A stretch of 40,465 bases of DNA from Dehalococcoidia bacterium (lineage in GTDB: Bacteria > Chloroflexota > Dehalococcoidia > GIF9 > AB-539-J10): contig JAUWQY010000012.1 of NCBI GenBank assembly GCA_030610855.1, positions 1-40,465 on the forward strand. The letters run 5' to 3'. The notes below the pieces were generated by a model that worked only from the letters and a program-made list of their open reading frames with translations, was not told the origin of the DNA and did no database searches. The translations under genes were made by a program, and so were the position numbers. Positions 3,458-33,246 of this stretch are shown here, in pieces (the first letter of the stretch is position 1; the number at the start of each line of letters is the position of its first letter).

Positions 3458-5155
3458 ATGAAGAAAACTGGTGCACAGATTCTCTGTGAGAGTTTAATTA
3501 AAGAAGGGGTAGAGGTTGTTTTTGGCATCATCGGTGGTGCTGTCTTACCGATATATGATACCTTCCCCCAATATCCTCAACTCCGCCATATATTAGTTCG
3601 CCATGAGCAGGGAGCGGCTCATGCCGCCGATGGCTATGCTCGAGTTACACATAGGGCGGGAGTATGTCTTGCTACTTCGGGGCCTGGAGCTACTAATCTG
3701 GTTACCGGCATTGCCTGTGCTTATATGGATTCAGCACCTATGGTAGCTATAACTGGCCAGGTAGCCAGACCTTTTATTGGCAAGGATGCTTTTCAGGAGA
3801 CGGATATCACAGGCATCACCCTACCAATCACCAAACATAACTATATTGTTACCGATGTTACTGAACTGGCTAAAACGGTTAAAGAAGCCTTCCACATTGC
3901 CCAGACGGGGAGGCCGGGCCCTGTGCTTATTGACATACCGCGAGATGTCCAGCAAGAGCAAACGGACTTTGTTTATCCCGATAAGCTTGATTTGCTGAGC
4001 TATAAGGTTGTCTCTCGCGGGCACCCAGTTCAAATTAAGAAAGCAGCAAAACTCATTAATGAAGCTGAGCAGCCTGTTATCATCGCTGGCAGGGGGATAA
4101 TTATTTCCCAAGCCTACGATGAGCTTAAGGAATTTGCCGAGAAAGCACAATTACCAGTGGCTCACACTCTACTTGGTCTGAGCTCCTTCCCCGGAAACCA
4201 TATACTTGACCTTGGCATGCTGGGGATGCATGGCACAGGTTGCGCCAATATGGCAGTGCAAGAAGCCGACCTTATTATCGCTATTGGCATGAGATTTGAT
4301 GACCGGGCTACAGCAAATACCAGGGAGTTTGCTCCCCATGCCCGCATCATTCACATCGATATTGACCCCGCAGAGATTGGAAAGAATGTACCAACAGAGG
4401 TTCCGGTAGTCGGGGATGTAAAAAGCGTGCTCACAGCCATGAATAAGGAGATTGAAAGAAGGGAGCATGTGGATTGGCTTTCTCAAATAGAACAGTGGAG
4501 GTATGAGCATCCATCGCTAGAAATCAGGCAAAGCGATGAGCTCTTGCCTCAATATATTGTTCACCAGATATACGAGGCCACGCAAGGTGATGCTTTAGTG
4601 GTTAGTGGGGTGGGGCAGAATCAAATGTGGGCGGCACGATACTTCGTTTATACCAAGCCAAATAGTTTTATTTCTGGGGGGGGATTGGGTCCCATGGGTT
4701 TCGAACTACCTGCGGCCATGGGAGTCAAAGTCGGTCGCCCCGAGGAGGTGGTATGGTGTGTTGCCGGTGACGGCGGCTTTCAGATGACTATCCAGGAATT
4801 AGCTACCCTGACACAGGAAAACATTGCTGTGAAAATAGCTATTATGAACAACGGGTATTTAGGCATGGTAAGACAGTGGCAAGAGCTATTCTATGGACGG
4901 CGCTACGTTGACACGAAACTTTGGAATCCCGATTTTGTCAAAGTTGCCGAAGCGTATGACATTCCTGGTATCAGGGTGAAACGCAGAGAGGAAGTCATCC
5001 CGGCTATACAAAAGGCCATGGAGTACCCTGGAGCTTTTCTCATTGATTTTCTTATTGAACCCGAGGAGAACATCTATCCAATAGTGCCACCAGGGGAAAG
5101 CCTGGCCAGATTTTTCGAGCCATCAAGGCCGGAAGTACTGGAGGGAAAAATCTAA
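3458..5155 (+). CDS. ilvB: Acetolactate synthase, large catalytic subunit
   Basis: ThDP-dependent enzyme making 2-acetolactate or 2-aceto-2-hydroxybutyrate from pyruvate (and 2-oxobutyrate), the first common step of branched-chain amino acid synthesis. The 565 aa show the three-domain order of the family: an N-terminal PYR domain with the catalytic glutamate in RHEQGAAHAADGYAR (near 50), a central FAD-binding domain (about 190-330), and a C-terminal ThDP domain with GDGGFQMTIQEL and the NNGYLGMVRQWQ stretch near 435-480. A ribosome site (AAGGAG) overlaps the intergenic gap after ilvD. The regulatory subunit follows, as expected for an anabolic AHAS. Confidence 0.96.
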   Translation: MKKTGAQILCESLIKEGVEVVFGIIGGAVLPIYDTFPQYPQLRHILVRHEQGAAHAADGYARVTHRAGVCLATSGPGATNLVTGIACAYMDSAPMVAITGQVARPFIGKDAFQETDITGITLPITKHNYIVTDVTELAKTVKEAFHIAQTGRPGPVLIDIPRDVQQEQTDFVYPDKLDLLSYKVVSRGHPVQIKKAAKLINEAEQPVIIAGRGIIISQAYDELKEFAEKAQLPVAHTLLGLSSFPGNHILDLGMLGMHGTGCANMAVQEADLIIAIGMRFDDRATANTREFAPHARIIHIDIDPAEIGKNVPTEVPVVGDVKSVLTAMNKEIERREHVDWLSQIEQWRYEHPSLEIRQSDELLPQYIVHQIYEATQGDALVVSGVGQNQMWAARYFVYTKPNSFISGGGLGPMGFELPAAMGVKVGRPEEVVWCVAGDGGFQMTIQELATLTQENIAVKIAIMNNGYLGMVRQWQELFYGRRYVDTKLWNPDFVKVAEAYDIPGIRVKRREEVIPAIQKAMEYPGAFLIDFLIEPEENIYPIVPPGESLARFFEPSRPEVLEGKI

Positions 5156-25647: not shown

Positions 25648-26628
25648 ATGCCAGCGAACTTACCACCGCAGTATTACGAGGCTGAGAGGAGATATCGGCT
25701 AGCCAAAGAGCCCGATGAGAAGATCGTCGCGCTACAAGCAATGCTCGCCATTATGCCCAAGCATAAAGGCACCGATAAGCTTCACGCTGGCCTGAGACGA
25801 AAGATCGCCAAGTTTTCACAGGAAGCCGAACGGAAGTACGCCACAGCCAGAAGAACAGGCTTCTATATAAAGCCGGAAGGCGCGGGACAGGTAATGCTGG
25901 TTGGTCCGGCCAATTCCGGTAAATCGCAGCTATTAGCGGCCCTGACCGACGCCCTCCCAGAGATAGCTGAGTATCCTTTCACTACTCAGACGCCGATCCC
26001 GGGGATGATGAAGTTTGAAGACACCCAAATACAACTGGTGGATACGCCGCCCATCGGGCACAAAGAAGTGAGGATACTGCTAGCAAACCCACTCAGAAAT
26101 GCCGATCTCATTGCTATTGTAATAGATTTGTCCCTGGAGCCGATAGGCCAGGTAGAGGCAACACTTCAGGGGTTAAGAGAAGCAAGAATAGAGCCCTTAA
26201 TCGACGACGCTGAACAGGCAAGTCCGGGCTCTTATCCCAGGAAGATGGTCATCGTGGGAAACAAGAATGACCTGGCAGGTTCCAACAGGAATTGTGAAAT
26301 CGTGCGTTCGCGATACGCCGGGCTGTTTCCCGTACTTGCCGTTTCAGCCAAGGAAGGTAACGGCCTCGACGAGTTCAGAACAGCGGTCTATCACGAGCTG
26401 GGCATCATTCGGGTCTACACCAAGACCCCCGGCGCCAAGGCTGACATGGCTGACCCCATGATAGTGGAGAAAGAAAGCACAGTGGAAGAAGCTGCCGAGA
26501 GCCTCCATAAGGACTTTCGCGAGAATCTAAAGTATGCTCTGGTTTGGGGATCAGGAAAGTATGACGGCCAGAGGGTTAGCAAGGGACATACACTTCAGGA
26601 TGGTGACATAGTGGAGTTCCACACGTAA
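25648..26628 (+). CDS. Obg/DRG-like GTPase with C-terminal TGS domain
   Basis: 326-aa P-loop GTPase. An N-terminal helical region (about 1-70, LRRKIAKFSQEAERK) precedes the G domain: G1 VGPANSGKSQLL near 86, G2 YPFTTQTPIPG near 112, G3 LVDTPP near 130, G4 VGNKNDLAG near 203 and G5 VSAKEGNG. The C-terminal ~75 residues are a TGS domain (VWGSGKYDGQRVSKGHTLQD and GDIVEFHT), as in the archaeal/eukaryal DRG proteins. The helix-G-TGS order is that of DRG, with ribosome association expected. G3 has DTPP rather than DTPG, seen in related sequences. Its neighbourhood is rich in RNA-binding proteins. Confidence 0.9.
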   Translation: MPANLPPQYYEAERRYRLAKEPDEKIVALQAMLAIMPKHKGTDKLHAGLRRKIAKFSQEAERKYATARRTGFYIKPEGAGQVMLVGPANSGKSQLLAALTDALPEIAEYPFTTQTPIPGMMKFEDTQIQLVDTPPIGHKEVRILLANPLRNADLIAIVIDLSLEPIGQVEATLQGLREARIEPLIDDAEQASPGSYPRKMVIVGNKNDLAGSNRNCEIVRSRYAGLFPVLAVSAKEGNGLDEFRTAVYHELGIIRVYTKTPGAKADMADPMIVEKESTVEEAAESLHKDFRENLKYALVWGSGKYDGQRVSKGHTLQDGDIVEFHT

Positions 26629-27343: not shown

Positions 27344-27709
27344 ATGAATATTTATGTAGGCAATGTATCTCGGGAGACCACAGAGGATGAACTGCGTAAG
27401 GCATTCGAGCCCTTTGGGCAGGTCACGTCGGTGAACATCATCAAGGATAGGTACAGCGGCGAATCCAGAGGTTTTGCGTTTGTTGAGATGGCGGTGAAAT
27501 CCGAAGCACAGACTGCGATCAACGAGCTTAACGGAAAACAATTGGGGGAGCGGACGCTCAGTCTTAATGAGGCACGCCCCCGCACCGAAGGCGGAAGAGG
27601 TGGCGGGTCGTATGGCAGAGGTGGCGGGTTCGGTGGGTCGTACGGCGGAGGAGGCGGGTCCTACGGTCGAGGTGGCGGTGGTGGAGGAAGCAAACGACGT
27701 AGATACTAA
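27344..27709 (+). CDS. Glycine-rich RRM RNA-binding protein (module 1)
   Basis: 121-aa single-RRM protein. RNP2 is NIYVGN (2-7) and RNP1 is RGFAFVEM (near 45-52), with the intervening ELRKAFEPFGQVTSVNIIKD and ERTLSLNEARPR closing the domain at about residue 78. The C-terminal 40 residues are Gly/Ser/Tyr/Arg-rich (GGGSYGRGGG repeats) and end KRRRY, the design of cyanobacterial Rbp and eukaryotic cold-inducible GRPs. It binds RNA, likely as a chaperone under stress. A ribosome site AAAGGGGG precedes the ATG. Paralogues are at 31257, 35466 (remnant) and 40071. The stop overlaps the convergent MBL gene by 4 bp. Confidence 0.94.
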   Translation: MNIYVGNVSRETTEDELRKAFEPFGQVTSVNIIKDRYSGESRGFAFVEMAVKSEAQTAINELNGKQLGERTLSLNEARPRTEGGRGGGSYGRGGGFGGSYGGGGGSYGRGGGGGGSKRRRY

Positions 27710-28605
27710 GCTGCCAGTATCTTACGGATTACAGTCCTCGTAACATCGGCCTGAAGCTCGGAACTTAGGAACGGAAGTTCATCTCTCTCCTGTATCTCAG
27801 AGAAGAGCTTCTGTGCCACTTCCTCAATGTCACCTATCTCTTGATATCGCTTGACAACATAGTTCTTGAGCCTTTCCGTCCCTTCCAGGCCCTGTTGTAA
27901 GATGTTTCTGGCTTGCTCACCGAGGAGAACACCGTGATGCTCAAAAGCACATATCTCTATATCGTAGCTAGAGAGTCTCTTCAGTGATTCCATATAGCTA
28001 GAGAAGTCGTACTGGGGTGAGGGGATGATGGTTCCCCTTCCATCGGACAGTGGACACGGGGCAGCATCGGAAGGGAACATGGCTTTCAACTCTGGAACAT
28101 ACACCGCCAGGGAGCACTTTGTATGGCCCTGCGTCTCTATGAAGTGGGCCTCGATTCCGTCGCCAAGCTCCACAACATCATTTGCGCCCACAACTCGATC
28201 GACCCGAATCCCGTCGAACTCCAAATTCAGCTCTTCGTATTCTTTCTGGAGCCCCAGCGCATCGATCGCCCCCTTGTTAGCAGTGGCAATGACATTCGCC
28301 ACCTTCGGTTTCGAGAATAGTTCGGCCGCGTACGCCGAAGCGAGTATCTGTACCTGAGGGAATTTCCTCTTCAAGTAGGGCACTGCTCCGCAATGGTCGA
28401 AATGAGAATGGGGCACGACGAGATACTTTATGTTGCCAGCGTCAAAGTCCATACCAGAAAACTGTCTTTCCAGGGCCGGGGCTATGTAGGCCATCCCCCC
28501 ACCAACAATCATGGCGTCCTTTCCTCTGATCAGATAGAGACAAATCTCCCGAGTCCCCAGGAAATCTATTCTGTCAGTGACTTTGCTCGGCTCTCCAATC
28601 CACAT
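27706..28605 (-). CDS. MBL-fold hydrolase (ODP/flavodiiron-like domain)
   Basis: 299-aa metallo-beta-lactamase-fold protein. Metal ligands are HSHFDHCGAVP (near 85-95), ETQGHTKCS (near 155-163), FPSDAA (near 177) and EHHGVL (near 223). An N-terminal strand-rich section (EICLYLIRGKDAMIVGGG) is typical of the oxygen-binding diiron or glyoxalase II-like group, but no flavodoxin domain follows; the C-terminal 70 residues are helical. The substrate is not predictable. It is convergent with the RRM gene (4-bp overlap). Immediately upstream on the same strand is an alpha/beta hydrolase gene, 28 bp away, so they may form an operon. Confidence 0.86.
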   Translation of the reverse strand: MWIGEPSKVTDRIDFLGTREICLYLIRGKDAMIVGGGMAYIAPALERQFSGMDFDAGNIKYLVVPHSHFDHCGAVPYLKRKFPQVQILASAYAAELFSKPKVANVIATANKGAIDALGLQKEYEELNLEFDGIRVDRVVGANDVVELGDGIEAHFIETQGHTKCSLAVYVPELKAMFPSDAAPCPLSDGRGTIIPSPQYDFSSYMESLKRLSSYDIEICAFEHHGVLLGEQARNILQQGLEGTERLKNYVVKRYQEIGDIEEVAQKLFSEIQERDELPFLSSELQADVTRTVIRKILAA

Positions 28606-28633
28606 GTCAAATATCTCCCTTCCTGCTACACGA

Positions 28634-29410
28634 TCAGGCAGAAACGAATTCTCTAATCGCCTGGAAGTACATCTCCCTGCCTGTCCACATTATGTCGTTG
28701 TGATCGGCTCCGGGAATCAGAACCAATCTCTTATCGCTGGCTGCTGAACTGCGAAACAGGGCTTCAGCCTCACTAGCAGGGATGATCTGGTCACACTCGC
28801 CGTGAATAATGAGTGTCGGCACTGCAATAGTACGCATCTTGGCAAGATTAGGAAACTCAGGGTCTTCCATACCGAGAGACCCGGCCGGTAATCCCAGATG
28901 CAACAAGAGGTTGATGAAACCAACAAACCCGCTCTCGAGAATCAATCCCTTTATCTTCTCTTGACAGCGGTAAGCTATTTCAACGGCGGAAATGCTTCCT
29001 AGAGAGCGACCCATGACAAAGACGTCGCTGCAGTACTGTCCCCGATGCAGAATATCATCGAATGCCTTGAATATGATGGAGGCATCGGAAACAGTGTTGC
29101 TCAGAGTAGGCTGACCCTGACCTGCGCCATAGCCACGATAATCTGCGACAAAGAGGTTGAGACCCAGCTGGTTATACGAAGGTGCAATATAATCATAATC
29201 ACTGACCACCTCGCCATTGCCATGGAAATAGAGAACGGAAGCTGAGCCCCGGCTGTGAATATAGAAGCGGCAAGAGACAGAAACGTCCTTCTCTACAGCG
29301 ATGAAATGGTCACAGGCACCGGATGGAGTTCGGGTATTATCCTTTCTTGGATAGAAGACAAAGGCGAGAATCTCAGGTCGGTCCAATGCAGAATAGTCGG
29401 TTTGCGACAT
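28634..29410 (-). CDS. Alpha/beta hydrolase (BAAT/Abhd17-like serine hydrolase)
   Basis: 258-aa cytoplasmic hydrolase. The oxyanion and nucleophile elbows are visible: YFHGNGEVVSDYD (near 78-90), VADYRGYGAGQG (near 100), then VMGRSLGSISAVE with the catalytic Ser in GRSLGS (near 138-143). The acid is in IIHGECDQIIP (near 203-212) and the histidine in PGADHND (near 235). This pattern is that of COG1073-type esterases; the substrate is unknown. It is followed on the same strand by the MBL-fold gene. A tRNA-Val fragment and terminator lie upstream. Confidence 0.9.
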   Translation of the reverse strand: MSQTDYSALDRPEILAFVFYPRKDNTRTPSGACDHFIAVEKDVSVSCRFYIHSRGSASVLYFHGNGEVVSDYDYIAPSYNQLGLNLFVADYRGYGAGQGQPTLSNTVSDASIIFKAFDDILHRGQYCSDVFVMGRSLGSISAVEIAYRCQEKIKGLILESGFVGFINLLLHLGLPAGSLGMEDPEFPNLAKMRTIAVPTLIIHGECDQIIPASEAEALFRSSAASDKRLVLIPGADHNDIMWTGREMYFQAIREFVSA

Positions 29411-29591
29411 CTCTTCTTCCGGCCTGATTTTAGCATATTCGGCAATTCTTCCATCTTGATGAAAGCCTCAACAAACATCTTAGAGTCGTTAGGATCCGTC
29501 TGACTTGACTCTAACAGCTACAATTTCCCTCCAAAGCTGGAACCGTGAGCCTGTAGCTTCGTTTTTGACCTGCCCGGAGCGATTCATGAAG

Positions 29592-29633
29592 CGGGCGGTA
29601 GAGGATTTGAACCTCTGATCTCCTCTGTGTAAG
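29592..29633 (-). tRNA. tRNA-Val(UAC) 3' fragment (attachment-site-like)
   Basis: On the minus strand the sequence from the anticodon loop CTTACAC (29627-29633) to the acceptor 3' strand CCGCCCG (29592-29598) reads as a tRNA-Val 3' half, with a proper T arm AGAGGTTCAAATCCTCT (29600-29616). The 5' half is absent: the bases before the loop (AGTGT) do not pair with AGAGG, no D arm is present, and no CGGGCGG acceptor strand is found. So homology starts within the anticodon loop, exactly as in tRNA-derived att sites left by integrases. It is not a functional tRNA. Confidence 0.7.
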
Positions 29634-29644
29634 ACACTCCTGCA

Positions 29645-29675
29645 AAAAGGCGGAGGCCGCTTGCCTCCTTTCTGA
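29645..29675 (-). terminator. Terminator of the DEAD-box helicase gene (possibly bidirectional)
   Basis: GGAGGC (29652-29657) and GCCTCC (29663-29668) pair around a 5-nt loop. On the minus strand the hairpin is followed by GCCTTTTTGC, a good U-tract, about 110 bp after the helicase stop. The plus strand has TTT after the stem. Confidence 0.65.
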
Positions 29676-29780
29676 GAGAGATCATAGCGAACACGAACTA
29701 AAGAAATCCAGTTCCCTGCCTAGCCATCTGTCCGGCGCAACAATCTAGAGGTAACACTGCGATGCAATGCCTTATGAGTA

Positions 29781-30989
29781 TCATCGGTTACGTTTCACCA
29801 ATCTCTTGCGCTCTATGTCATGCCGTCGTGGCTGTCCCGAAAGGTGTGATTGTCCGTCCGGTGCAGGCCTGGCGTAATCAAAGCCTTGCAGTGTCAACCG
29901 CTTCAGCCGCGCGTTGAGAAGCCGCTCAAGGGCGCTTATCTTATCAGTATCGGCGCTGGTGACAAAGGTAATCGCATCTCCGTTCTTCTTAACCCTTCCG
30001 GTACGGCCGCTGCGGTGGATATAGGCATCCGTATTTTCCGGCATATCGTAATTGATGACGTGGGAAATACTCAAGACATCGATACCGCGAGCGGCGATAT
30101 CGGTTGCCACCAGAATCTTGATCGAGCCGTTACGGAAACCTTCAAGCGCGGCTTGACGTCGGCTCTGAGGAAGGTCGCCCTGCAGAGAAGTCACCCGATA
30201 GCCGGCTCTTACCAGCTGCTGTGCCACGCGTTCAGCTCTGTGTTTGGTACGGGTGAAGACAAGCACCGACTCCATACTGGTTCTATTTAGAATTTCCTTC
30301 AGCAAATTCGTCTTCAGGTGCTGTTGTACCGGGTACAGAGCGTGTGACACTGTTTTTGGCGGTAGCTCGGGGTCGACCTGCACTGTGACCGGGTCATGCA
30401 GGATTTCACGCGCCAGGCGCCGGATATCCGCGGGCATGGTAGCTGAGAAAAGCAATGTCTGGTGTTTGTGAAGTATGCACCTCAGTATGTTACGTACATC
30501 AGGCAAAAAGCCCATATCGAACATACGGTCAGCCTCGTCAATGACGAGGACCTCCAGCTCTGACAAACTGATAGTTCCTTTCCAGAGGTGGTCAAGCAAA
30601 CGACCCGGGCAGGCCGTGACAATCTCAGCACCGTTGCGCAGTCCACGGATCTGCTGTTGCATGCTCACCCCGCCGTAGATAGCAATACTATGCAGCCCTG
30701 TTCTGCTCCCCAGATTGTTGACAACCTCGCAGGTCTGCTCGGCCAGTTCGCGTGTCGGTGAGATTATCAGAGCCCGGACGCCTCCTTGAGGACTTGACCG
30801 CAGCCGTTCTAGAATCGGCAGCACAAAAGCGGCGGTCTTGCCTGTGCCAGTCTGTGCAAGCCCAATGACATCACGCCCCTGCATTATGAGCGGGATGGCC
30901 TGCAATTGAACTGGTGTGGGTACGGAATAACCGAGCTCACGTACACCAGCCATGACGCTTGGATGAAGATTAAAGGTTTCGAAATTCAT
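29781..30989 (-). CDS. DEAD-box ATP-dependent RNA helicase (RhlE/CsdA-like)
   Basis: 402-aa superfamily 2 RNA helicase. Q motif region FNLHPSVMAGVRELGYSVPT PVQLQ, motif I AQTGTGKT (near 45), Ia PTRELAEQ, II VIDEADRMFDMGF (near 148), III SATM, IV VLVFTRTKHRAE, V ATDIAARGIDV and VI HRSGRTGR, all present and in order. The C-terminal extension is short (~35 residues) and basic (IERKRLVKRNR), as in RhlE. It unwinds structured RNA and typically acts with RRM or cold-shock proteins. Same strand as the zinc-ribbon/RRM pair 2, with a 267-bp gap, so the three may be co-expressed. Ribosome site AAGGAG. Confidence 0.95.
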   Translation of the reverse strand: MNFETFNLHPSVMAGVRELGYSVPTPVQLQAIPLIMQGRDVIGLAQTGTGKTAAFVLPILERLRSSPQGGVRALIISPTRELAEQTCEVVNNLGSRTGLHSIAIYGGVSMQQQIRGLRNGAEIVTACPGRLLDHLWKGTISLSELEVLVIDEADRMFDMGFLPDVRNILRCILHKHQTLLFSATMPADIRRLAREILHDPVTVQVDPELPPKTVSHALYPVQQHLKTNLLKEILNRTSMESVLVFTRTKHRAERVAQQLVRAGYRVTSLQGDLPQSRRQAALEGFRNGSIKILVATDIAARGIDVLSISHVINYDMPENTDAYIHRSGRTGRVKKNGDAITFVTSADTDKISALERLLNARLKRLTLQGFDYARPAPDGQSHLSGQPRRHDIERKRLVKRNR

Positions 30990-31256
30990 TAAACTCCTTG
31001 GTGAAATGCGAGCCCAAAGCCTGAACGATTGGTCAGATGGCTCAAATCATTTGATATTTTCTTTCTCCTCCTCTGTTACTCACCGCCTATTATTCCCACT
31101 ACCGGAAATTGCCGCCCCATCTTTATATGAAACGGGCAAGGCCTCGATAACAAACCGGTTCTTCAGTCTTTCGCCTCGGCGTTAGCGATTGCAGTTGTGC
31201 CTTCCGGCTTCGAAGGACTTCAACATATCCGTAGCTCCTTTAAGCGGCAAGGTTGT

Positions 31257-31625
31257 CTAGTATCTTCGTTGCCTGCCACCACCGGAGCGGCCCCCGCTCC
31301 TGCCACCACCATACCCACCACCATAACCGCCGCTATAGCTGCCACCTCTCCTATCGCCGTAGGAACCACCACCCCTGCTGTCCACGCGAGGACGGGACTC
31401 ATTAACAACAACGGTTCTGTCGCCAAGCGTTTTGCCGTTCAGTCCTGCAATGGCAGCTTCCGCCTCAGACTTTGATGGCATATCAACGAAGGCGAAGCCC
31501 CTGGCTTGCCCAGTTAGCCTATCAGCAGGAATAGCGACGGATTCCACCTTGCCATAAGTGCCGAATTCTGCTGCCAGTTTCTCCTCCGTAACATCAAAAG
31601 CTAGATTGCCCACATAGATCTTCAT
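31257..31625 (-). CDS. Glycine-rich RRM RNA-binding protein (module 2)
   Basis: 122-aa RRM protein. RNP2 is KIYVGN and RNP1 is RGFAFVDM. The linkers are the module's most diverged: EEKLAAEFGTYGKVESVAIP and ADRLTGQARG. The Gly/Arg/Ser/Tyr-rich tail (GGSYSGGYGGGYGGG) ends RQRRY, matching the KRRRY end of the module 1 protein. The ATG at 31625 has GGGAGG at the right distance; translation from 31700 would add 25 unrelated residues. It follows the zinc-ribbon gene (199-bp gap with a strong hairpin) and precedes the DEAD-box helicase. Confidence 0.94.
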   Translation of the reverse strand: MKIYVGNLAFDVTEEKLAAEFGTYGKVESVAIPADRLTGQARGFAFVDMPSKSEAEAAIAGLNGKTLGDRTVVVNESRPRVDSRGGGSYGDRRGGSYSGGYGGGYGGGRSGGRSGGGRQRRY

Positions 31626-31764
31626 AATCTTCCCTCCCTTATCATTGATTTTGTTCGCTGTTTCGCTTAATACCCCTGCCGCCGCTTCCGTTGAAAGCAC
31701 AGCAGCACAGACTGCCGTGATTCGCCTTCACGTCTTGACACTTCTAAGGACAAAGCTGAAATTT

Positions 31765-32433: not shown

Positions 32434-33246
32434 ATGAAGACAAAGAAGGCAGAGGACCAACGGGATTCGCAGGCTGAATCCCAGGCTACCGGCCGAGTCA
32501 GCACAACTGGGACAGCATCTCGCCATCGATCAGGGGATAGCACTGCAATCTTCGCCCAAGACCTGTTCGATGGGATTGCCCACTCGTACGACACTTGGGC
32601 ACAAGTGCTGACTTTCTTTCAGTACCTTCGCTGGCGTAGGTTCTTAGTCTCGCAAATGGCTCCTCGGCCTCGAAACCTCGTGCTTGACGTATGTACCGGT
32701 ACAGCCGGTGTTGCCCTGGAGATTGCCCGCCACCATAATGGACGCATCGTGGGGCTCGATATTTGCCACTCAATGCTGGAAGCTGGCCGTGGTGCTGTCG
32801 GGAAGACAAGCCTGGACGGCAGAATCCAACTTGTCCAGGGCCGCGCTGAGCAATTACCCTTTCCTGATGAGACCTTCGATACGGTTGTCTTCACCTACCT
32901 GTTGCGTTACGTCCAAGAGCCCGATGCAACAGTACGGGAACTGTCTCGGGTACTGAAGCCAGGCGGGGAATTGCTCTCGCTTGAGTTCGGTATTCCAGAA
33001 TCCTCCTGGATAAGAGTTCTATGGCTGATGTACAACAGGGTCGTCATGCCCGTTATGACGCTCCCTATTTCACTAGGGTGGCATCGTGTTGGCCGTTTCT
33101 TAGGTCCGAGTATCTGGGACTTTTGTCAGCGGTGTCCTGTTGACCGCATCGCCGCAATATGGCGTGAGAACGGAATTCCGCTGGTAGAAACGAGACGCCT
33201 GTTTCAAGGTGCAGCCATTGTGATGTGGGGAACGAAACGAAGATAG
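32434..33246 (+). CDS. UbiE/MenG-like SAM-dependent methyltransferase
   Basis: 270-aa class I methyltransferase. After a 45-residue polar N-terminal extension comes FDGIAHSYDTWAQVLTF, then motif I VLDVCTGTAGVALEIA (near 83-98), GLDICHSMLEAGR, LPFPDETFDTVVFTYLLRYV (near 147-166) and RVLKPGGELLSLEFG. The D-x-x-TGT motif and the FPD-F-D-V pattern are those of the UbiE/MenG quinone C-methyltransferases; menaquinone methylation is plausible, but no men genes are near. The ATG has GAGGA about 7 nt upstream. The C-terminus lacks an obvious membrane anchor. Divergent from zinc-ribbon module 2. Confidence 0.8.
   Translation: MKTKKAEDQRDSQAESQATGRVSTTGTASRHRSGDSTAIFAQDLFDGIAHSYDTWAQVLTFFQYLRWRRFLVSQMAPRPRNLVLDVCTGTAGVALEIARHHNGRIVGLDICHSMLEAGRGAVGKTSLDGRIQLVQGRAEQLPFPDETFDTVVFTYLLRYVQEPDATVRELSRVLKPGGELLSLEFGIPESSWIRVLWLMYNRVVMPVMTLPISLGWHRVGRFLGPSIWDFCQRCPVDRIAAIWRENGIPLVETRRLFQGAAIVMWGTKRR

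Follow-up and report, generated by a model that had tools for sequence, protein, structure and literature searches.

In this study, we characterized a 3′ half of the transfer RNA (tRNA) gene tRNA-Val(UAC) and a conserved sequence, hereafter the end module, that directly precedes it in the genome of a Dehalococcoidia bacterium. The window, which is the whole stretch of DNA that was analysed (40465 bases), is the entire contig C67 of this genome (76 contigs, 1.63 Mb; designated G000). On the minus strand, GTGT is followed directly by CTTACACAGAGGAGATCAGAGGTTCAAATCCTCTACCGCCCG, and the fragment consists of the anticodon loop with TAC, the 3′ anticodon strand, the variable loop, a paired T arm (AGAGG/CCTCT) and the 3′ acceptor strand. 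The 5′ half is missing, as a preliminary description of this DNA had recognized. The end module, which that description overlooked, is about 130 bp long and is composed of a sigma70-like promoter, a GAAAGGAGGCAAGCGGYCTCC-type hairpin and approximately 12 nucleotides (Table 1). Comparisons drew on three overlapping sets of genomes: 20 genomes of the genus (G codes), 52 genomes of the family, and the GTDB genomes.

ARAGORN called no tRNA anywhere in the window, and the Rfam tRNA model scored the fragment at 14.4 bits, below the cut-off and in the T arm only. The 40-bp core of the fragment is single-copy in its own genome when up to 3 mismatches are allowed. The best match to a tRNA-Val(UAC) gene of a sister species is far beyond chance, being 95% identical over 44 bp (E = 6.6e-14 in that genome). 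The fragment is a real scar of DNA inserted into a valine tRNA gene. The preliminary description had anticipated an intact tRNA-Val gene outside the window with an integrase beside it, and both were located: the intact tRNA-Val(UAC) gene lies at C33:434-509, and directly behind it stands the start of a tyrosine integrase frame (C33:458-258). Across C33:1-509, this integrase is interrupted by an insertion reaching the contig end, which from its translation we take to be an IS3-like insertion sequence (IS).

The genes below the fragment also point to tRNA-Val(UAC). The GTPase gene of this flank is located downstream of tRNA-Val(UAC) on the same contig in six relatives (G001, G003, G005, G012, G017, and G019), and the hydrolase and lactamase-fold genes are likewise downstream of it in G003; in G004, a different gene, spoU, occupies the place. 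Gene order was read in relatives with long enough contigs, the contigs of other genus-mates being too short or left out. C33 and the window contig are not joined, and the relative orientation of tRNA-Val and the fragment is that suggested by flank orthology. The distance from tRNA-Val to the flank gene in the six relatives is about 2–10 kb, and none of them is a clean empty site for this insertion. The preliminary description had set an attachment site against a fragment kept at the same place in distant relatives. The fragment is kept in the close relative G007 (93.4% over 1944 bp, including everything below; the G007 contig ends just above the fragment) and is absent at the orthologous place in G003, where all four of its matches were listed; thus, it is not anciently conserved. 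Because of the flank orthology downstream of tRNA-Val and the copy in G007, we conclude that the fragment lies at the distal limit of a hot spot for insertions behind tRNA-Val and is older than the split of G000 and G007. The earlier proposal of an attachment-type duplicate is borne out by the integrase frame behind the intact gene and by these flank genes. An odd tRNA fragment thereby becomes a scar with a relative date: it arose before the G007 split and was later drawn into a rearrangement.

Table 1 Features of the tRNA-Val(UAC) fragment, the end module and their flanks (positions in the window).
Feature	Position	Strand	Basis
TGS/MMR_HSR1 GTPase, conserved flank	25648..26628	+	75–82% in G001, G003, G005, G012, G017, G019; Pfam
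Metallo-beta-lactamase-fold protein, conserved flank	27706..28605	-	94% in G007, 66% in G003; Pfam
Alpha/beta hydrolase, first gene of the conserved downstream flank	28634..29410	-	95% in G007, 71% in G003; Pfam
3′ half of tRNA-Val(UAC), anticodon loop to acceptor strand, probable attR-type duplicate	29592..29633	-	93–95% over 44 bp to sister-species gene
End module common to other elements; upper edge at about 29760 is the junction with the helicase 3′ flank	29634..29764	-	71–79% DNA matches in G005, G008, G012, G015, G018
11-nucleotide spacer, left arm of presumed crossover site, TGCAGGAGTGT	29634..29644	-	Positioned like CTACNNGCTACA and comparable spacers of other copies
Conserved block GAAAGGAGGCAAGCGGCCTCCGCCTTTT	29645..29672	-	0 mismatches to pattern
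Hairpin GGAGGC-AAGCG-GCCTCC within the block	29652..29668	-	Local folding
Sigma70-like promoter, reading out through block and fragment	29681..29710	-	TGGATT (29705-29710), 18 nucleotides, TATGAT (29681-29686); score 8/12
DEAD-box helicase adjoining the module; relocated core gene rather than demonstrated cargo	29781..30989	-	Pfam DEAD, Helicase_C
RRM RNA-binding protein, moved with the helicase	31257..31700	-	Pfam RRM_1
UbiE-type methyltransferase, moved with the helicase	32434..33246	+	Pfam PF01209

The end module is a recurrent sequence. The pattern of its conserved block was found at 21 places in 10 of the 20 genus genomes and at 24 places in 12 of the 52 family genomes, and the reversed control pattern at none in either set. 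In the GTDB genomes, 37 stretches carry the pattern, compared to about 0.06 expected from base odds. Thirty-four of these are titled Dehalococcoidia, Dehalococcoidales, or Chloroflexi/Chloroflexota, and the remaining three Deltaproteobacteria (two) or WOR-3 (one). Loci L188 and L197, titled Deltaproteobacteria and WOR-3, have the module with the same metF-like flank as Dehalococcoidia loci; the WOR-3 contig and one Deltaproteobacteria contig may be mis-binned, and we do not claim spread to other phyla. The pattern had no match in viral contigs, giving no sign that the module belongs to known ones. Within the genus, the module is joined to the 3′ halves of tRNA-Pro(GGG), tRNA-Pro(UGG), tRNA-Val(CAC), and tRNA-Met(CAU), each of which begins at the anticodon stem-loop. 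We rejected the idea that the block merely terminates transcription of the helicase gene, as the same block with its own promoter occurs next to tRNA halves in numerous contexts that are otherwise unrelated. Reading it as a guide RNA or as the right end of a transposon was likewise given up, there being no matching protein. The module provides an exact 27-base search key, with which metagenomes can be surveyed for the number of units, for their genes, and for their movement.

Seventy module contexts were gathered, one of which (L183) duplicates another (L066). Promoters were scored in the 67 that have 250 upstream bases (three do not): a score of at least 9/12 at the fixed place was reached in 39 of these copies, some of which share ancestry, versus 10 of 268 shifted controls. 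The leader of the module, GAAAGGAGGCAAGCGG (also written GAAAGGAGGC), carries a small hairpin. Over 38 distinct blocks, its mean folding energy was −8.7 kcal/mol, compared to −4.6 for composition shuffles. The 5′ arm of the hairpin is nearly constant, and most variation in its 3′ arm consists of G-U pairs. Given a stable hairpin with so little change in the 5′ arm, recognition of the sequence and RNA structure are equally likely explanations. Covariation is weak, and we make no claim of a covariation-proven RNA; paired changes on both sides occur only in copies with an enlarged loop. Three modules at locus L255 have an enlarged hairpin, whose inner stem varies between copies by paired changes. 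At L254:16754 and 17412, the ATGGGG of the crossover core can serve as the start of a frame extending into the following gene; about 30 nucleotides upstream lies AAAGGAGG, a strong Shine-Dalgarno-like sequence.

Units between modules were measured at 21 loci, and matches scoring 18–23 were not taken as modules. Several loci hold two to five modules, all in the same direction within a series (head-to-tail). The 15 units between well-scoring modules are 0.5–2.2 kb long, and most have one good reading frame. Larger units are 9.8, 11.7, and 12.2 kb long; the last is bounded by two modules and has an XerC/D-like integrase right behind the first tRNA half. Pfam searches of ten unit proteins identified nitronate monooxygenase, glyoxalase-fold and B-repeat proteins among them; four had no match, and no integrase was present among the ten. 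Series are headed by an intact tRNA-Pro(GGG) gene in CP070842.1, W589, and G017 and by tRNA-Pro(UGG) in G015, and no integrase was found in these series. The bacteria that carry such units are uncultured and come from sediment and groundwater; the units often hold a single gene each and are lined up behind tRNA genes.

Comparison of related loci reveals differences at the module itself. A 962-bp one-gene unit is present in G008 and missing in G017, with flanks that are 94.8% and 92.9% identical, forming a filled/empty pair. The DNA that CP070842.1 and W589 have in common stops at the 3′ end of tRNA-Pro(GGG); past it, the two have only module copies in common. W156 and CP070842.1 have a glyoxalase unit and the far flank in common (90% and 82%), between which there is one unit in W156 versus four in CP070842.1. 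W156 and bin10 have both anchors of a series in common but contain different units between these. G015, G018, and G008 have the flank beyond the module in common (86–91%), and the genes before the module differ between G015 and G018.

The genome of the window is rich in tRNA-targeted insertions. The integrase frame behind tRNA-Val is 57–65% identical to two other integrases of this genome, one behind tRNA-Arg (intact) and one behind tRNA-Ala (frame-shifted), and another tyrosine integrase stands behind tRNA-Pro(GGG). The family behind tRNA-Val, -Ala, and -Arg has matches in 11 of the 20 genus genomes (E ≤ 1e-15). The tRNA-Arg(UCU) element is complete (C49:323-8667, about 8.2 kb), with an intact integrase at one end and the tRNA-Arg 3′ half at the other. 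Including that half, seven further tRNA 3′ halves lie elsewhere in the genome, most of them beginning near the anticodon. The other six (C31 about 4345-4395, C48 about 172-211, C51:5396 and 8026, C29:11948, and C65:27055) are Val-GAC, Lys, Met-like, and Ala-like, and one is just upstream of thrS. At loci L075:434-1348, L144, and L145, the integrase reading frame extends in one frame without a stop into the tRNA 3′ half, the T loop being read there as GSNP.

Above the module, the arrangement is of another kind. The preliminary description had seen accessory genes on both sides of the fragment, but most of these genes resemble core genes (DEAD helicase, RRM protein, UbiE-like methyltransferase, and TypA). 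In G007, the start of the RRM gene (89% over 38 amino acids) and a 91% methyltransferase homolog lie beside a tRNA cluster on contig C50, and the helicase is followed by a moeA-type region on contig C36; in G004, the helicase is beside the tRNA cluster. In the genome of the window, the tRNA cluster is directly followed by the moeA-type region (C33:1572-3229), and the helicase, RRM, and methyltransferase genes are inverted against the module. Because these genes sit across the tRNA cluster in G007 and G004, we conclude that a rearrangement put the helicase side of this junction in its present place. Similarity to G007 over the helicase reaches as far as 29760, and similarity of the module to other elements sets in at 29764, which places the rearrangement joint at about 29760. 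Of the island proposed earlier, the insertion scar at tRNA-Val stands, but the interval above the fragment is not a simple island, the helicase, RRM, and methyltransferase genes having been moved there.

From this anatomy, with its joints, tRNA heads, and differing units read directly from the sequences compared, we consider it probable that the fragment is the distal attR-type duplicate of an insertion at tRNA-Val(UAC), that the module is a conserved unit end, and that such units stand in tRNA-headed series. A site-specific tyrosine recombinase would have inserted a mobile unit at the anticodon stem-loop of tRNA-Val(UAC), presumably by crossover in the anticodon loop. The unit would have carried its own copy of the tRNA 3′ half, keeping the resident gene working, and the displaced half would have stayed at the far end. 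The conserved unit end of about 130 bp would consist of an outward sigma70-type promoter, followed by the hairpin leader and finally by the crossover site's left arm. Units ending in this way would form head-to-tail series behind intact tRNA-Pro(GGG), tRNA-Pro(UGG) and, by extension, tRNA-Val(UAC), and would range from single-gene units of 0.5–2 kb without an integrase up to a 12-kb unit with the XerC/D-like integrase. They would be gained and lost at the module, and a tRNA-associated integrase may act in trans on those that lack one. The promoter is possibly used in a circular unit or reads into the next unit; circle-only integrase promoters occur in some conjugative elements. The series at the tRNA-Val of this genome would since have decayed, its integrase cut by the IS element and the helicase/RRM/methyltransferase segment moved against the module.

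Several observations weigh against this reading. The fragment is only 86% identical over 44 bp to the intact tRNA-Val(UAC) of its own genome, and not identical to it over the 3′ 42–45 bp as the preliminary description had envisaged. The tRNA-Val(UAC) genes of the genus have two T-stem alleles, AGAGG/CCTCT, carried by the fragment, and ACTGG/CCAGT, carried by the resident gene. Such a difference is expected if an incoming unit swapped the 3′ half of the gene for its own, and drift of the old copy would serve equally. The sequence above 29764 is made up of core genes, not cargo, and the joint itself could, less likely, reflect a chimeric contig of this metagenome-assembled genome. The complete tRNA-Arg element has an integrase and no module, and conversely G008 and G017, both of which have unit series, yielded no match at E ≤ 1e-15 to the integrase family that follows tRNA-Val, -Ala, and -Arg; an attempt to tie the module to one integrase family therefore failed. 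Two places in CP070842.1 depart from the simple picture: the array at 1311-1316 kb (L255) has no nearby tRNA gene, and at another, located behind tRNA-Arg(UCU), the core and that tRNA do not match. The genes of units occur in both orientations; therefore, the view that each promoter simply serves the gene after it does not hold and was dropped. The T arm, classified in 69 of the 70 contexts (one is too short), is exact in 32, absent in 21, and weakly matched in the rest; about half of the copies have no recognizable T arm. Ordinary homologous recombination between repeats of the module (about 48 bp) could also remove units.

How far the resemblance to gene cassettes extends is a more tentative matter. 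Dehalococcoidia may possess a cassette-capture system in the role of the integron, in which tRNA anticodon stem-loops are the head sites, single-gene units with an outward promoter and a conserved terminal hairpin site, usually without a recombinase, are placed after an intact tRNA gene by a tyrosine integrase in trans, and the head unit supplies the working tRNA 3′ half; the fragment in the window would be one such site at tRNA-Val. We rate this full version somewhat short of an even chance. A more conventional account, possible but rather doubtful in our view, is a decayed genomic island or prophage at tRNA-Val: the module would close the integrative elements of a single family on their right side, and the series would be nested remnants without integrases. 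The integrase-bearing element bounded by the module fits it, as do the broken integrases behind tRNA-Val and tRNA-Ala, the complete integrase element at tRNA-Arg, and a report of tandem islands with cis-mobilizable members at one RNA gene in Dehalococcoides (PMC3146451). However, the many 0.5–2 kb units with a single intact gene, including the filled/empty pair, would be hard to obtain via random decay, and the end sequence is near-exact to the base across units that otherwise share nothing.

The module and the tRNA half could instead form a functional RNA gene, in which the promoter drives a short transcript that has a hairpin at its 5′ end and a tRNA-like 3′ half and for whose sake the copies are kept. 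The fixed promoter distance, the near-invariant leader, and the CCA retained in many copies joined to tRNA halves are compatible with this, and exact T arms (n = 33, counting the short context) remain paired despite changed stems, at 97% versus at most 87% in 1000 shuffles of re-dealt arms, a pairing that also speaks for the insertion reading. We nevertheless regard it as unlikely: the copies without a recognizable T arm argue against it, the T-arm changes are explained by earlier service in an intact tRNA, and an Rfam scan of 28500-31500 found no family at E ≤ 1. It is very improbable that the fragment arose without a mobile element, as a degenerate tRNA-Val gene whose 5′ half was simply deleted. 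Such a gene would be single-copy, without a 5′ half and with no integrase adjoining it, as the fragment is, but the 5′ half has been replaced by an end module found at many other tRNA halves, and the seven further halves of this genome mostly start near the anticodon as well.

If the series are mobile, widespread uncultured bacteria would have a gene-trading system built on essential tRNA genes and not on the integron platform. The likeness to integrons lies in one-direction series of mostly single-gene units, each ended by a shared hairpin site, behind a fixed head site. Unlike in integrons, the head is a tRNA gene and not attI beside intI, and most series lack an integrase. Three tRNA-adjacent integrases scored 39.2, 38.2, and 61.1 bits on TIGR02249 (integrase_gron), below its cut-off of 265, and thus gave no integron-type integrase. 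The sequence of the module site appears to be unlike attC. Tycheposons are likewise tyrosine-recombinase elements at tRNA genes with cargo, and we know of no module of the present kind in them. They are described as 4–200 kb elements (PMC10872708).

No description of the module was found in the literature searched, a search to which most subscription papers did not belong. Within Dehalococcoides, tandem ssrA islands are described behind one RNA gene (PMC3146451), and McMurdie and colleagues described a high-plasticity region 2 that starts after tRNA-Leu,Arg,Val (PMC2764846), a trio that also precedes the present site. As far as the consulted portions of these reports go, the islands are of the same class as ours, being tandem islands behind an RNA gene with tRNA 3′ fragments as far ends. 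Those portions differ from our findings in reporting a CcrB-like serine recombinase (DsiB) and a 20-bp repeat for the ssrA islands, whereas the present site has a tRNA target and tyrosine-type neighboring recombinases, and in making no mention of single-gene units with this module. If the present interpretation is true, it would help explain why tRNA-Leu-Arg-Val borders a Dehalococcoides high-plasticity region. For fGI1 of the marine 'Ca. Actinomarinales' (PMC7771536) and fGI-2 of 'Ca. Methylopumilus' (PMC10872708), small cassettes located at tRNA genes and bearing partial tRNA repeats have been described. In the parts of these reports that were consulted, fGI-2 sizes go down to 330 bp and one gene, with content varying between close strains, as in our units; these parts concern other phyla and mention neither a promoter-hairpin end module nor one module across different tRNA targets. 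The Dehalococcoidia system works like tRNA-anchored gene cassettes; it is not an integron, and among known systems it most resembles these tRNA-associated additive islands.
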